Position numbers and translations under genes: made by a program. DNA of 41,796 nucleotides, from contig JANJWP010000001.1 in assembly GCA_024709505.1 (NCBI GenBank), forward strand, positions 1 to 41,796. Direction: 5' to 3'. Positions within the stretch are counted from its first letter, which is position 1; each line of letters starts with the position of its first letter. The DNA comes from Candidatus Altimarinota bacterium (lineage in GTDB: Bacteria > Patescibacteriota > Gracilibacteria > BD1-5 > UBA2023). Below, piece by piece: positions 4,042 to 10,734 of this stretch. The notes below the pieces were generated by a model, which was not told the DNA's origin, ran no database searches, and saw only the letters and a list, made by a program, of their open reading frames with translations.

Positions 4042-5364
4042 ATGCCGAAAATTCTCGACCTTCTCGTAAAGGCGTTCCTCGTCCTTTTGCCCTTCAGCGT
4101 CTTCCTTTCGGTATTTTTTTCCCATAAGCTCGGCGTTCCGGGCGCCAACTCCGCGAAGGAGCTTCTCCTGCTCCTCATTGCGGGAACGGTTGCCTTCGGA
4201 TATTGGAAAAACCGACGGTTTCCCGAATTTTGAGCCGTCGAAATCCTCATTTCCGCCTACGTCCTTTGGATGCTCCTTTCGACCTTCGTAAACGGAGGAT
4301 CGTTCGGGCACTACGTTTACGGGGGCCGCTACGATTTCGAATTCCTTTTCGCGTTCCTCGTTTTCAAGCACGCTTTGGGGTTCCTCCCCGGAAGGATTTC
4401 CGAATACGTTCGGATTTTCCTGTATTCGGCAACTGCCGCCATTGCTTTGGGGGCGTTCGTCCGATTCGTTTTGCACGAGGAAATCCTTCTCCATTTCGGT
4501 TTTTCGCCCAACCTTTCCAATTGGAAATTCGGAGGTTCCGTTCCCATTTACCATGGTATCGACGGAGCGAATGTCCGACGCTTCCAGGGGATTTTCGACG
4601 GACCGAATCCCGCCGCGTTCTTCATGATTACGTACTTGGGCCTGCTTTTCCATTATTTCAAATCCAAAAAGGAAGAACTTTTCGGAGTTTCCGTGTGGGG
4701 GCTCGTCGTTTTCGGCCTCATTTTGTATACGTATTCGCGCTCGGCGTTAGTCGGCATGGCGCTCGGCGTCGGAGCTCTTTTGGCGGTGACGGCCCGGTTC
4801 GTTTGGAAAAAACACCGCAAAGCCGCTTTCGTCGCGATTCCGTTCGTGGCGATATTCGCCCTCGCGTTTTACGTGAAGTTCGAACACAGCATGGACCGCA
4901 TCATCTTGCGCGAAGGATCTTCCAAGGGGCACTTCGAACGGATGGTTACGGGACTGGAACGCTTTCGGGAGAATCCGGTTTTCGGTGAGGGGCTCGCCTC
5001 GGCCGGTCCGGCTTACCGCTACGTGGTTCCGATGAACGAAGGGGAGAGTTTGTACCGTGGGGAAACGAAAATAAAAGAAGACTACTACATTCCCGAAAGT
5101 TGGTACGTGCAACAGCTCGTCGAGTGAGGGGCTCCGGCATTTGCGGCGTTCGTATCGATTCTCGGTCTCATTGCCTGGGGATTGTTCCGGGTTTCGCTCC
5201 CGCTCTTTGCGGCGTTCGTGGCGTGCGGTGCCATGAATCTTTTCCTTCATAGCTACGAATCCGCCTACGCTTCGCTCTCTTTGTTCGCTTTTTCCGGACT
5301 GTTTTATGCCGTATACCAAAAAACCGAAGCTCCTTCGGAAGCGGGAAGGCGCTCCCATGCGTAG
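4042..5364 (+). CDS. Wzy/O-antigen ligase-like membrane protein
   Basis: The 440-residue protein consists of many hydrophobic helices with a large periplasm-side loop. The loop holds RFQGIFDGPNPAAFFMITY (near residue 180), which matches the RxxGxFxxPNxxA pattern of the Wzy_C (PF04932) ligase/polymerase family, and continues with GRFREN-like 'LERFRENPVFGEGL'. Such enzymes polymerise or transfer lipid-linked polysaccharide units outside the membrane. Two TGA codons (4231, 5125) are read as Gly. It starts an operon with the glycosyltransferase, whose ATG lies 8 bp inside its end, and with the WecG/TagA gene. Whether it acts as polymerase or ligase cannot be told from sequence. Confidence 0.82.
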
Positions 5365-6538
5365 CTTCGTTTTCTTCGGAAGGCTCGTTCCCGAGAAAGG
5401 ATTCGAACTGCTCTTTCCTTTTTTCGAGGAAATTCTTGAGACGAAGGTTTCCCGGGTTGCCGTTTTTGGCGACGGGCCGCTTCGAAAAGAGTTCTTTCTG
5501 AGATTTTCGCGCCGAAAGGGTTTTTATGATTTGCAGTGCCTTTCGGATGCGGACTGCGCCGAGCGCTTCGCGTCACTTCCTCCCGGATCGGTCGCGTATT
5601 TTGGTCGGCGCCCCTTTTCTTCGATATCCGGCGTTCTTTCTTTCGCCGATATTTCGCTCATGCCGTCGGTCTTTTTGGAAACCTTCGGTCTCTCCGCGCT
5701 GGAATCGCTTTCGCTTTGAGTGCCCGTCGCGGGATTTTCCAAAGGAGGAATCGTTCCGTTTCTCGTTGCCGACGAACTGCGGCTCGCTCCCCGTTCTCCG
5801 ACCGGAAGCCTCATCTCGCTGCTTTCCGTTTCCGACGACCGCATCTCCGAGTGGAAGGTTCGGGCGCTTTCGGCTTCGAAGGAATATTCTCCCGAACGCT
5901 TTCGCGAAAGGTTTTTTTCGATTCTTCCGAAAGATGCTCGAAAAATCCTCTTGGTGACGGACTTCCTTTCGAATCTTGGCGGAATCGAAACCTACGTCCG
6001 AAACCTTGAGGCCACCCTTCGCGAGTATGGCTTCGAAGTTCAAATCACGGGCTTTGAGGCCGGTTTTTCCACTCCCGCTCAAAAGGTAGCCTCAACCCTC
6101 TCGTCCTTTTTCAACTTTTCCGGAAGAAACCGCCTCTCCAAAGCGGTCGCGGACTTTTCCCCCGACGTTATCTGGTGTCATTCGGTGTTGAGAAGATACG
6201 GCCCCATAGGCATTGAAGGCGTATTCGTCCGGAACGCTTTCCGAATGATGACCTACCATGACCTTGGATATTTCGCTCCTTTCGCGGCGAAATGTTTCGA
6301 GGAATCCGACGTTCCGAATCCGGAATTTTTCGCTTTCGTTCGGAGTGCTCCGGGATTTTTGCCAAAGGCTTTCGCGGCGGCGAAATACGTGAAACTCCGA
6401 ATGCTTTTTTCCCGGCTTTCCCGGTTCGACCTCCATCTTGTTCCTTCGGATTTCGTCGCCCGATACGTTTCAAATGTTCTTCCCCAAGGAAAAACCGTCG
6501 TTTTGCCCCATTACGTTGTCCTTCCATGAACGCGCTAA
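5357..6538 (+). CDS. GT4-type glycosyltransferase with swapped domain order
   Basis: The 393-residue protein begins directly with the sugar-nucleotide-binding half of a GT-B enzyme (PF00534-like): FVFFGRLVPEKGFELL at 4-19, VFGDGP at 36-41, and the EX7E motif E108-E116 followed by GVPV. After residue 190 comes the acceptor-binding half (Glyco_transf_4-like): KILLVTDFLSNLGGIETYV at 196-214, PDVIWCHSV, MMTYHDLGYF, ending in LVPSDFVARY ... VVLPHY. Normal GT4 enzymes have the reverse order. Start and end both fall at the usual hinge, as in a circular permutation. TGA at 5717 and 6527 are Gly; the true stop is TAA at 6536, giving overlaps with both neighbours. It probably adds a sugar to the repeat unit of the surface glycan. 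Confidence 0.85.
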
Positions 6539-7341
6539 CCATTTCGGAAATTTTCCCCAAACTGGAACGCCGGAACGCCCAAGACTCCATCCGCGCAATC
6601 TTGAGCCTCTGTCAATCCCGCTTCGCGCAAGGGTTTCCGGTGCTGGTAAATTTCCTGTATTACGCCAACGCCGAGATGCGCCACGTTTTCGACGTTTCAA
6701 AGCGGACTTCCGCCGATGAATCCTACGTTCAATCCCTTATGGAAGGGGATTTTCTCCTTCCTGACGGAATCGCCCTTGCCCTTTCGTGCTTCCGTTACGA
6801 AAATCCCGAAGCGCCTCCGATCAAAACGCTCCTTTCCTACCGTTCCATGGGGGATTCGACTTTGCCCAATCTCAACGGGACGGATCTTCTGCCCGAATTG
6901 CTCTCAGCTTTCAGGGAAGGGTTCGGTCCTCGCGCGACCGGGTATTTTTATGGCAGCTTCCCGTTCGTGGTGGAGGCGGCGGCAAAATCGATGTCGGAAA
7001 GCTCTGGAATGCCCATCGGTTTCCAAGACGGATATTCCCCCTTCGATTTCGAAGCGTTCGAACGCCTCTGAAGCGGTCCGAAAATCCTCTTCGTCGGACT
7101 TGGAACTCCGAGACAGGAAATCTTTTGCAACGAGAATGCCGCCAGATTTCCGGCGACCTTGGCCGTAACGGTGGGGGGATTTTTCGATTTTATCGGAGGA
7201 GGGGAGACGCGGGCCCCCGAAGTGGTTCGGAGACTCCGACTGGAATGGCTTTGGAGGGTAGCGCTAAATCCTCGGAAAAACGGCAGGAAGGTCGCCGCGA
7301 GCTTCAAGTTTTTCCCCCGGTATTTCCGGGGATTCGAATAA
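6526..7341 (+). CDS. WecG/TagA/CpsF family (GT26) glycosyltransferase
   Basis: The 271-residue protein shows the family core: LPDGIALAL near residue 80, FVGLGTPRQEIF near 190, VTVGGFFDFIGGG followed by RAP, and LRLEWLWRVALNPRK near the end. GT26 enzymes transfer N-acetylmannosamine(uronate) or similar sugars to an undecaprenyl-linked acceptor early in teichoic acid or enterobacterial common antigen synthesis. The exact sugar is not predictable. A TGA at 7069 is Gly, just before the LGTPRQE block. Its ATG lies inside the end of the preceding glycosyltransferase gene (13-bp overlap), indicating coupled translation. TAA stop, followed by a terminator. Confidence 0.88.
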
Positions 7342-7389: not shown

Positions 7390-10300
7390 CTATTTCACCT
7401 CGAAGAGCGCGAGCCAACCGTGATTGGCCACTGAGGCGATGAGATTGATGAGCTCTTCATCGGTCTTGGGTTTCCGGCGTTCGACGTATTTCGAAAGCGG
7501 AAGCAGATAGGGGTGCTGGTCTTTGCTTACGTGCCCACCCTTTATGAGTTCGGCAAAATATTTGTGGCAAGCGGCTTGTTTTTGGGTTCGGTAGGTCACC
7601 GCTCCGGTGGAAGAATACGATTCGTAGTTCACTCCGGCGAGCGTGAGGAATTCTTCGTCGGAAGTTTCTTTGGCGCTGTACATGGCCGATTGGAGGCAGA
7701 GGCTGTCGGTTTTTACGAGCCGGAGCTTGTCCGAACGGAAGGTTTTCAAAAGATTCTCGAACCTTCGGGTCAAATCCCGTCTCGGATCCCGGTCAATCGT
7801 TGCGGCGTTGAGATCGATGAGGAAATACTTTACCCCGAGTCGCTTCAGGCGTTCGACCGTGACGTCGGGATTTTCGTCATAGAGGTATTGTCAAAACGAT
7901 TGGACGAGACTGTCCTCCAGGTAGCGCTTCCGGTTTTCCGAAATGAAATAGGTGAGAAACGTTCCGATTCGGTATATGGTTTCCCCGTTTCGGTCCTCGG
8001 GCTTCGGATAAAGAACGCTTTCAAAAAGAAGGGTTCGCGCCTTTTTCGCCTCGGAATTCATGGTTCGGATTCTTTCGGGTGGAATTCCGGAAACCGATTC
8101 CGGAGAAGTTTCCGCCATTTGATCGAGAATCTGCTGAAGCTTGTCAACACCCCGGTCGTTTCCAAGGTTTTCCAAGACGATGGCCTTCGTTGCCGGATCC
8201 GAAATGCTGCCCACTATCCGGTCAACCAACCCGGTGCCGCCTTTGAGATTGAGCGTGGCAAGGGCGGGGAGATAGTCCGGATGGCTCGCGAAAATCGCTT
8301 CTTCTTGCGAAAGTTTCGAAGCTTTGTAATCCGAAAATCCGGCGCCTCGGAAATTCTTCCATCCGTGGGGAATCGCCGATTGGAAGAAATAGGTCATGAC
8401 GATGGCGAAAACCGTCAATGCCGTCAAAAATCCTCCTTGGCTCGAACCGCCGTCTTCGGAGACTGCCCGTTCGAGCGAAAGCGCGATGGCCGCGAACATG
8501 AGGACGTACACGGCGATTCCATACCAAACGATTCCGTAAGCGGCAATGACGAATACGAAGCCGTAAAAGCAGAGAAACGCCAAATTCGCGAGGAACCGTT
8601 CGTTATGCGCGTGGTTCTTTTCGAGCGCGAAATGGAACCCCAAAAGCGGAAGGAGAGTAATCGCCGCGATGACGAGGTATCCTCCGGGAAGCAGGATGTC
8701 CGAAAAGAATTTCGTCAGCGCGACCGACCCGTAGGGATTGAAGAAATAGAAATACTCGAAGGCGATGACCGCAACGGGGGCCAGTGCGAAGGCCGGATGC
8801 CGGTAAGCAAGAAAGACGAAGGCCGCCGGTAAAAATACGAGGAAGACGAACGTGATTTCAGTATATTCTCCCGGCTGATTGCGTTGATAGGTGAGGTTGA
8901 AGGGGAGTTTGAGGTAGTTGTTGATGCCGTTCTCATATCCGAAATACCGTCCCAAATCTTCGTTGGTGGTTTTTCCGCTCGCGCTCATCGCCGCGTCGGC
9001 GTTAATCCGATCTATGGCATCGAGTTCGCTTTCGGTCCGTACCGTTCGAACGTCTGCCGGAACGGGAAAGAGCGTTCCATTCAAAAGCGTTCCGACATGG
9101 ATCGGGCTTCCGTACCGAACGGCCTCCGAAGCGTTTTTAACGAGCCACGGCGAAAAGGCGGCGCCGGCCGACGCTGCAAAAATCAAAAGGGGTACGGCCA
9201 CCCCTTGAACGGCCGCCTTCCCCCGCTTCCAAAAGGCGTAGCCGAAAAGCGCCGCGGCTCCGCCCAATGAAATGACCGTTACCGCCGAAAGCAGGGCCGG
9301 ATCGTCTTTCGGGTAGTTGACGTTGAGCATTCCCCAAAGGTCCAATGCGGTGAACGATCCGACGAACAATCCGAAGAATCCGTAAAATCCGGGAAGTCAG
9401 AGCCCCACATAAGCAATGGTGGCCGCCGCCCCCAAAAAAAGCATGAGGGTGGTGAATTTCACGGCAAAAGCGATGCCCGCGAGAAATCCGGCCAAAGCCG
9501 CGAGTTTCCAAAATTCCGAACGGTCCTCCTTTTTTGTCCGCACGAGTTCGTAGATGACGAAAATCGCGCCGGTAGTAATGGCGAGGAGCCCGGGGTCAAG
9601 CTTCATGTCCTTAGCCTGCTGGAAGACGATCATGGGCATCGCGTAGGCCAGGGTGGCGAAAAGGAGCGGAAGGTTCAAGTGGCTCCGTTTCGAATCCGAA
9701 AACGAAATGACGCGCTTCAAGAAGAGTCCGATTACGACCACCGCCACGATGCCCCCGATCTGATTGAGGAAAAACGCTTGCGTCGCCGAACGGAACAGAA
9801 AGCCGATACCCGTAAGCGTTTGCCATGCCACGGTTCAAAGACGTCCGATTTCGCCGGTTTCGGCCATGATTCTCGGATAGTTCATGTACACTCCGAGATC
9901 GTCCCAACCAATCGGCATGGGGCGAACGACGTTCACGAAATTTACGCCGATGAGAAAGGTGAGGACGAGGAAGAGAAGCTCCGTCGAAATGAGCGGAAGC
10001 GCCACGAGCTTCGTCACCCCTCCATCCGTTCGGTGGTTTTCGTACCGGAAGACCGGCCCCGAAAGTTTTCGCATCGCCCGAAGGGAGTCCTTCCATCAAA
10101 ACGCGAGCATTCCCGCGAGGGGGAGGAACGTCGTCACGAGGGAATATCCAAACGCCGAAGTCGAGACGGAAAGGAAGAACAAGTACGCTGAAAGACCGAG
10201 CGTTAGTCCCGTGACGATTCGGAATTCCGACGACCGGGTTTCGAAGTCCGCAAACGCCTTTCCCATGGCCCAAAACCCGAAACCGGAAACGACGAGCACG

Positions 10301-10734
10301 ATGAGGATGGGGAGGAGCGAGAATCCGACGATCTTGAAGAAGAGTGAAAACGAAGCTCCGGCGTATCCCTGCGGAAAAGGAAAAAATCCCGAAAGGACGG
10401 CCACGTGGGCGACAGTCGCCCCGATGATCCAAGCGGGGGAGTAGGAAACCTCCTTTTTTCCCGAAAGCGAGGTCCAAGCCTTCCATCCGCCGTATAACAC
10501 CAGCATGGTGAAAACGTAGGCGGAAAATCCGGCCCCCGCCACTTCCGAGTGACTTTCCCCCGCGTAATAGGCCGCAATGACCCCGGTCGCGACAAGCACG
10601 AGGAGAATGGTTTTCCAATAGGGGGAAATGCCGTCTTGGACGGCGGCTTCGACGGCCGAGCCGTCTTTTTTAAGGGGTTGCTTCGCCACTTTCTTTGATG
10701 GTAAGGGGATAGTCGGCTTTTTTGCGTTTTCCAA
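7390..10734 (-). CDS. Very large polytopic membrane protein, GT-C glycosyltransferase-like
   Basis: Reading through four TGA codons (complement of 10093, 9832, 9394 and 7891) gives 1,114 residues with well over a dozen hydrophobic helices. An early extracytoplasmic loop contains PIGWDDLGVYMNYPRIMAETGEI, an Asp-Asp pair before an aromatic/Pro stretch as seen in the first loop of lipid-phosphate-sugar-dependent GT-C enzymes. The C-terminal ~250 residues are soluble (VERLKRLGVKYFLIDLN, then charged helices), as in Stt3- or Pmt-like proteins. A role in adding sugars to the surface glycan or to proteins outside the membrane is inferred. The start is uncertain: TTG at 10734 (overlapping the flippase end) or GTG at 10689. 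TAG stop. Confidence 0.72.

Follow-up and report, generated by a model that had tools for sequence, protein, structure and literature searches.

The window, a stretch of 41,796 nucleotides from a Candidatus Altimarinota bacterium, carries a gene for a 393-residue protein in which the two halves of a GT4 glycosyltransferase stand in reverse order. The gene lies between, and overlaps, two further genes of putative glycan synthesis, and its features are as follows.

4042-5364, forward strand: upstream Wzy_C (O-antigen ligase/polymerase-like) gene (Pfam, 9.9e-13), overlapping the permuted gene by 8 nt
5357-6538, forward strand: permuted GT4 gene, 393 aa in code 25, donor half followed by acceptor half (translation and Pfam)
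5357-5935, forward strand: donor-binding half, residues 1-193, C-terminal in a normal GT4 (Pfam and structure alignment)
5378-5401, forward strand: GRLVPEKG motif; R9 and K14 are invariant in permuted and ordinary members
5678-5704, forward strand: E-x7-E motif (E108, E116), complete in the window protein
5717-5719, forward strand: in-frame TGA read as Gly121, at a conserved column with Gly in 27 of 29 relatives
5924-5941, forward strand: new junction, residues 190-195 (DSSP on the model)
5936-6535, forward strand: acceptor-binding half, residues 194-393, N-terminal in a normal GT4 (Pfam and structure alignment)
5978-5989, forward strand: GGIE, residues 208-211; G208, G209 and E211 are invariant in the family
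6257-6262, forward strand: acceptor-half pair H301-D302 (YHDLG), invariant
6509-6511, forward strand: cut hinge end, with His385; all 36 permuted members with a letter there have His
6527-6529, forward strand: second in-frame TGA, read as Gly391, within a non-conserved tail
6526-7341, forward strand: downstream WecG/TagA-type glycosyltransferase gene (Pfam, 1.7e-29), overlapping the permuted gene by 13 nt

Only with TGA as glycine (table 25) do positions 5357-6538 form one uninterrupted frame. A table 11 reading was rejected because TGA breaks the frame, at 5717-5719 (codon 121) and again at 6527-6529 (codon 391). Across the family, 142 of the 144 TGA codons in well-conserved columns stand where other members have glycine, which makes the TGA=Gly reading sound. 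In the genome of the window, the prfB model has a single match, below the model's cut-off. The start at 5357 finds support in a same-genus orthologue (L003), where the matching ATG has a stop six codons before it.

Domain order and junction

The initial annotation, made from the letters alone, had placed the donor-binding half first and the acceptor-binding half second on the strength of four motifs. These are found at residues 7-15 (FGRLVPEKG), E108/E116 (E-x7-E), 207-214 (LGGIETYV) and 362-367 (VPSDFV), and Pfam independently gives the same order: Glyco_trans_1_4 covers residues 3-138 and Glyco_transf_4 residues 208-385 (profile positions 2-164 of 170; 1.2e-07, above its gathering score). 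The donor-domain matches, of the Glycos_transf_1 type, reach 3.3e-10 and 1.6e-09 and also exceed their gathering scores. Among 30 permuted members (alignment A2), donor families are matched in all 30 and Glyco_transf_4 in 27. MurG/Glyco_tran_28 families are absent from the window protein's Pfam matches up to an E value of 1. No NCBIfam family scores above its cut-off for the window protein, and NCBIfam scores are little altered by rotating the sequence, because those matches involve the donor half only. The window protein thus reverses the usual GT4 architecture of acceptor before donor. This order is typical of GT4 rather than defining, since CAZy families rest on sequence similarity, and the protein is a permuted, GT4-derived variant rather than an ordinary GT4.

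In the structure model, DSSP places about six residues between the last helix of the donor half (179-189) and the first strand of the acceptor half (196-203). The termini had been proposed to lie at the normal interdomain hinge, and this is confirmed by comparison with a normal-order homologue, L074: permuted members are without the hinge segment DSKHLVERQDIFQDK, which in L074 stands between ...VLPNFI and INFVFFGRL. At the cut hinge end, His is also found in all four split members with separately encoded halves, and Asn in L074 and many ordinary GT4s.

Further evidence for a permutation comes from rotation. We scanned 30 permuted members with a profile of 15 ordinary, normal-order GT4s (a model of 407 positions). 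With the native sequences, the best single match spans at most about half of the model. When the sequences are rotated at the junction, 29 of the 30 gain more than 5 bits against the ordinary-GT4 profile, or nearly double their score, and in 22 of the 30 the best rotation yields a single alignment that begins where the 407-position model begins and extends beyond position 340. The window protein itself rises from 35.8 to 58.4 bits, matching model positions 4-274. Rotation restores a colinear match to the unpermuted family, as expected for a circular permutation.

Predicted structure and active site

A comparison of a structure prediction with a standard GT4 had been suggested as a check, and it speaks for the permuted order. 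The AlphaFold2 model, from 30 family sequences, is confident (mean pLDDT 95.3, pTM 0.90), and in superpositions on solved GT4s (all by VIA-align) each half falls on the opposite terminus. Residues 2-182 of the donor half superpose on residues 199-361 of the GT4 BshA (2jjm) with a Z score of 19.4 and an rmsd of 2.1 over 157 residues, and SdgB, TarM and MshA give a similar picture. The acceptor half, modelled alone from an alignment (A3) that included three halves from fetched genome loci, reaches a pLDDT of 92.4. It superposes on PglA residues 2-183 with a Z score of 12.5 and an rmsd of 3.3 over 159 residues, on MshA residues 1-203 (Z 11.6) and on PimB' residues 4-178. Two Rossmann-like domains with GT4 topology are thus seen domain by domain, while their mutual placement is judged by pTM only. 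A search of PDB sequences with the acceptor-half profile gave no credible match; the assignment of this half rests on Pfam, on the ordinary GT4s of the phylum and on the fold.

R9, K14, E108, the GGxE loop and H301-D302 are predicted to play the roles generally known for GT4 enzymes, and their invariance is as expected if the GT4 active site were intact. The E-x7-E motif is less uniform over the permuted members: its first Glu is present in 38 of 38, its second in 18 of 38, being replaced by N, T or D in the other 20. The loss, seen in about half of the permuted members (alignment A2), is found chiefly in SR1-like ones. Catalysis may therefore vary between branches.

Distribution of the permuted gene

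Orthologues with the same order, which the initial annotation had wanted sought, proved abundant. A protein search covered 99 relatives, and a profile search 353 genomes of the class; genomes were counted by hand from the match tables, and fetched loci were checked with half-profiles. We count 65 genomes with the donor-acceptor order: 23 of the 27 from the window's family (f1), 41 of the 49 from an SR1/Absconditabacteria-like family (f13) and one from a third (f21). In the f1 count, one gene is frameshifted between its halves and another has an in-frame TAG close to the junction. Named matches are mostly from Candidatus Gracilibacteria and SR1/Absconditabacteria genomes, and three of the assemblies with the permuted order (G099, G100 and G140) consist of a single contig. 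In two of the families the permuted gene is near-universal and single-copy. The same swap of halves has been kept across dozens of related tiny bacteria, and because the order is conserved in 65 genomes, the permutation is more than chance.

Outside the class, 380 genomes of the phylum yielded only weaker acceptor-half matches, and those fetched are normal-order GT4s. The window's own genome holds no second permuted copy; the six other Glycos_transf_1 genes found in it all carry the donor half at the C terminus. Phage records and viral contigs gave no match to the permuted protein.

Normal-order and split relatives

An unpermuted homologue of the same family does exist. L074 (431-1666, reverse strand), from an f13 genome (G129), encodes 412 residues in acceptor-donor order and is strongly matched by both half-profiles (acceptor 6e-62, donor 2e-35). 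Compared half by half, its mean identity to the family is 34% and 30%; for ordinary GT4s the figures are 21% and 23%. The donor half of L074 stops before the last conserved helix and is without the GGL motif, as is the partial donor half of L059.

In other relatives (L071/L072, L073 and L075) the family is split. Genome G110 has two complete genes on different contigs, one for an acceptor half (L071) and one for a donor half (L072), and no other family-level copy of either half; L071:503-1105 and L072:2835-3386 are a candidate two-subunit GT4. G124 (L073) has a gene for the donor half and, after it, a separate one for the acceptor half, and in G125 an acceptor half stands alone. In G068 a contig start truncates the donor half. 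The two halves have evolved together: their identity matrices correlate with a Mantel r of 0.82 (permuted maximum 0.21; none of 2000 permutations as high).

In the phylogenetic tree, the family is separated from ordinary GT4s at 100/100, while its base is poorly resolved. L074 and L059 join the window's branch, inside the permuted clade, at a weak support of 85/84, and a clade of permuted and split members that leaves out L074 is not rejected (AU p=0.084). This placement and this p value fit a single permutation, with L074 keeping the original order, as well as a more complex course of fission and refusion. The Asn of L074 at the hinge end, where permuted members have His, is one character that may lean towards the ancestral order for L074.

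Gene neighbourhood

In f1, the conserved stretch that holds the permuted gene comprises YGGT, FtsW/RodA, Wzy_C, a WecG-type transferase (in some genomes), a large gene with no Pfam match and a Wzx-like flippase. The Wzy_C gene is adjacent or close to the permuted gene in same-family relatives, and the WecG-type gene is syntenic in L032, L037 and L040. These conserved neighbours point to surface-glycan assembly, a role to which we would give roughly even odds. In f13, a gene that by eye resembles trmD is often found near the permuted gene, rather than a glycan cluster (L038, L042, L043, L045, L048, L050, L055 and L061). Since the f13 neighbourhood differs from that of f1, what is conserved is the gene itself and not the cluster.

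Two further genes of the window deserve mention. At 7393-10734 on the reverse strand lies the gene for a hydrophobic protein of 1114 residues with no Pfam match at an E value of 0.001, which adjoins the permuted gene and the flippase in f1 relatives at 35-65% identity. At 993-1943 on the forward strand, a 317-residue protein with an fn3 domain has at its end LPSTG, a hydrophobic run and basic residues, resembling a sortase-type cell-wall sorting signal.

Discussion

Taken as a whole, the gene is very probably a naturally circularly permuted GT4 glycosyltransferase. That the GT4 halves are permuted we regard as close to certain; that the permuted protein forms one folded enzyme is highly likely, if a little less so than the explanation overall. 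Computation shows the domain order and how widely it is conserved, the fold of each domain, the motifs that are kept and the genetic code. In the mechanism we propose, an ordinary two-domain GT4 would have been cut at the interdomain hinge and its old ends joined, which would therefore put the donor half ahead of the acceptor half. The domains would now be covalently linked only where the former C-terminal helix passes into the acceptor half's first strand, and on closing they are predicted to form the usual GT-B cleft. The predicted reaction would take a sugar from a nucleotide donor and pass it to an acceptor during the synthesis of cell-envelope glycans; we infer the activity itself, retention of configuration, the donor and the acceptor.

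Could the order be an artefact of assembly or binning, arising from a contig rearrangement or a wrongly joined circular fragment? Most of the genomes are metagenome-assembled, which would allow for this, but the same breakpoints recur in 65 genomes of several families, single-contig assemblies among them, and are shared by members down to 20-40% identity. The initial annotation had argued against an artefact from the overlap of the gene with both neighbours; the overlaps are real, Wzy_C synteny is conserved in f1, and together with the recurrence they leave an artefact a negligible probability. The initial annotation had also raised the objection that the halves might belong to two different glycosyltransferase families. 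A fusion of halves from two unrelated GT4s, or a protein whose domains each act with other partners, would fit the greater distance of the acceptor half from known structures and the stand-alone halves of some genomes. However, L074 joins both halves of this very family in normal order, the ordinary GT4s L096, L089 and L097 rank near the top with either half, the distances of the halves co-vary, and the pTM is high, so that we consider such a fusion very improbable. Loss of glycosyltransferase activity, in the permuted protein or in part of the family, is unlikely, if less remote: the replaced second Glu in 20 of 38 permuted members speaks for it, while the invariant residues listed above, the complete E-x7-E of the window protein and the near-universal, single-copy occurrence of the gene in two families speak against it.

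How a permuted GT4 arose is a different matter. Fission at the hinge, followed by fusion in reverse order, has in our view about an even chance of being the route. A more specific history is tentative, at roughly one chance in three: in it, the hinge split would date back to an ancestor of the code-25 Patescibacteria, some lineages would still use the halves as separate subunits, and re-fusion would have been mostly in reverse order and, in one lineage, in normal order. A real permutation could also have come about by tandem duplication and truncation, with an acceptor-donor-acceptor-donor intermediate losing its outer halves, for which the odds are somewhat below even. This is the textbook route to circular permutation; its breakpoints would look alike, and the split forms might be later fissions of the permuted gene. 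Against it, no tandem intermediate was found among the fetched family members, whereas split forms, adjacent (L073) or unlinked (L071/L072), and a normal-order form (L074) do exist.

Finally, we would like to place the permuted GT4 into the context of known systems. The ordinary GT4s BshA, MshA, PimA/PimB', PglA, TarM and SdgB share both domains, the donor-site motifs and the per-domain fold with the permuted family, which differs from them in its reversed domain order, its new termini at the hinge, the absence of a hinge linker, the His at the hinge end (Asn in many ordinary GT4s) and the frequent loss of the second E-x7-E Glu. The hinge permutation had been called unusual, which is true in part: for GT4 we found no precedent, and the open-licence literature gave no report of a permuted GT4 or GT-B enzyme, but a reverse fusion of GT-B halves is known from Alg13-Alg14 (PMC8993221). 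This MurG-like GT-B enzyme is split at the hinge and has repeatedly been re-fused, in reverse order in Entamoeba histolytica and Dictyostelium (PMC8993221). The likeness extends to a hinge split in part of the family and to refusions, some of them donor-acceptor (PMC8993221). However, Alg13-Alg14 belongs to a MurG-related family, is eukaryotic and mostly split, whereas the present family is bacterial, of GT4 type and consists nearly entirely of reverse fusions, spread over two bacterial families. It may be seen as working like a bacterial GT4 parallel of Alg13-Alg14, not as a member. The GT99/GT107 beta-Kdo transferases (WbbB, KpsC) also have an altered GT-B architecture, in which a helical insertion displaces an acceptor domain that is still N-terminal, without reversal of the order (PMC9587256). 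The GH70 glucansucrases are a naturally permuted carbohydrate-active family, with a (beta/alpha)8 barrel related to GH13 and not a GT-B fold (PMC11046441).

The family bears on a wider question of glycosyltransferase architecture. Rules based on domain order, and gene calling in table 11, will miss or break such genes. GT4 enzymes make up one of the oldest and largest families of glycosyltransferases, and the interdomain hinge is the point about which they open and close. The present family, conserved yet lacking the hinge link, tests the need for the hinge against the sufficiency of the C-terminal crossover helix, and the presence of normal, split and permuted forms in one family makes a direct comparison possible. 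If the hinge-split ancestor proposed above were true, these bacteria would offer a natural series of one GT-B enzyme, from a normal chain through a two-gene heterodimer to a permuted chain.
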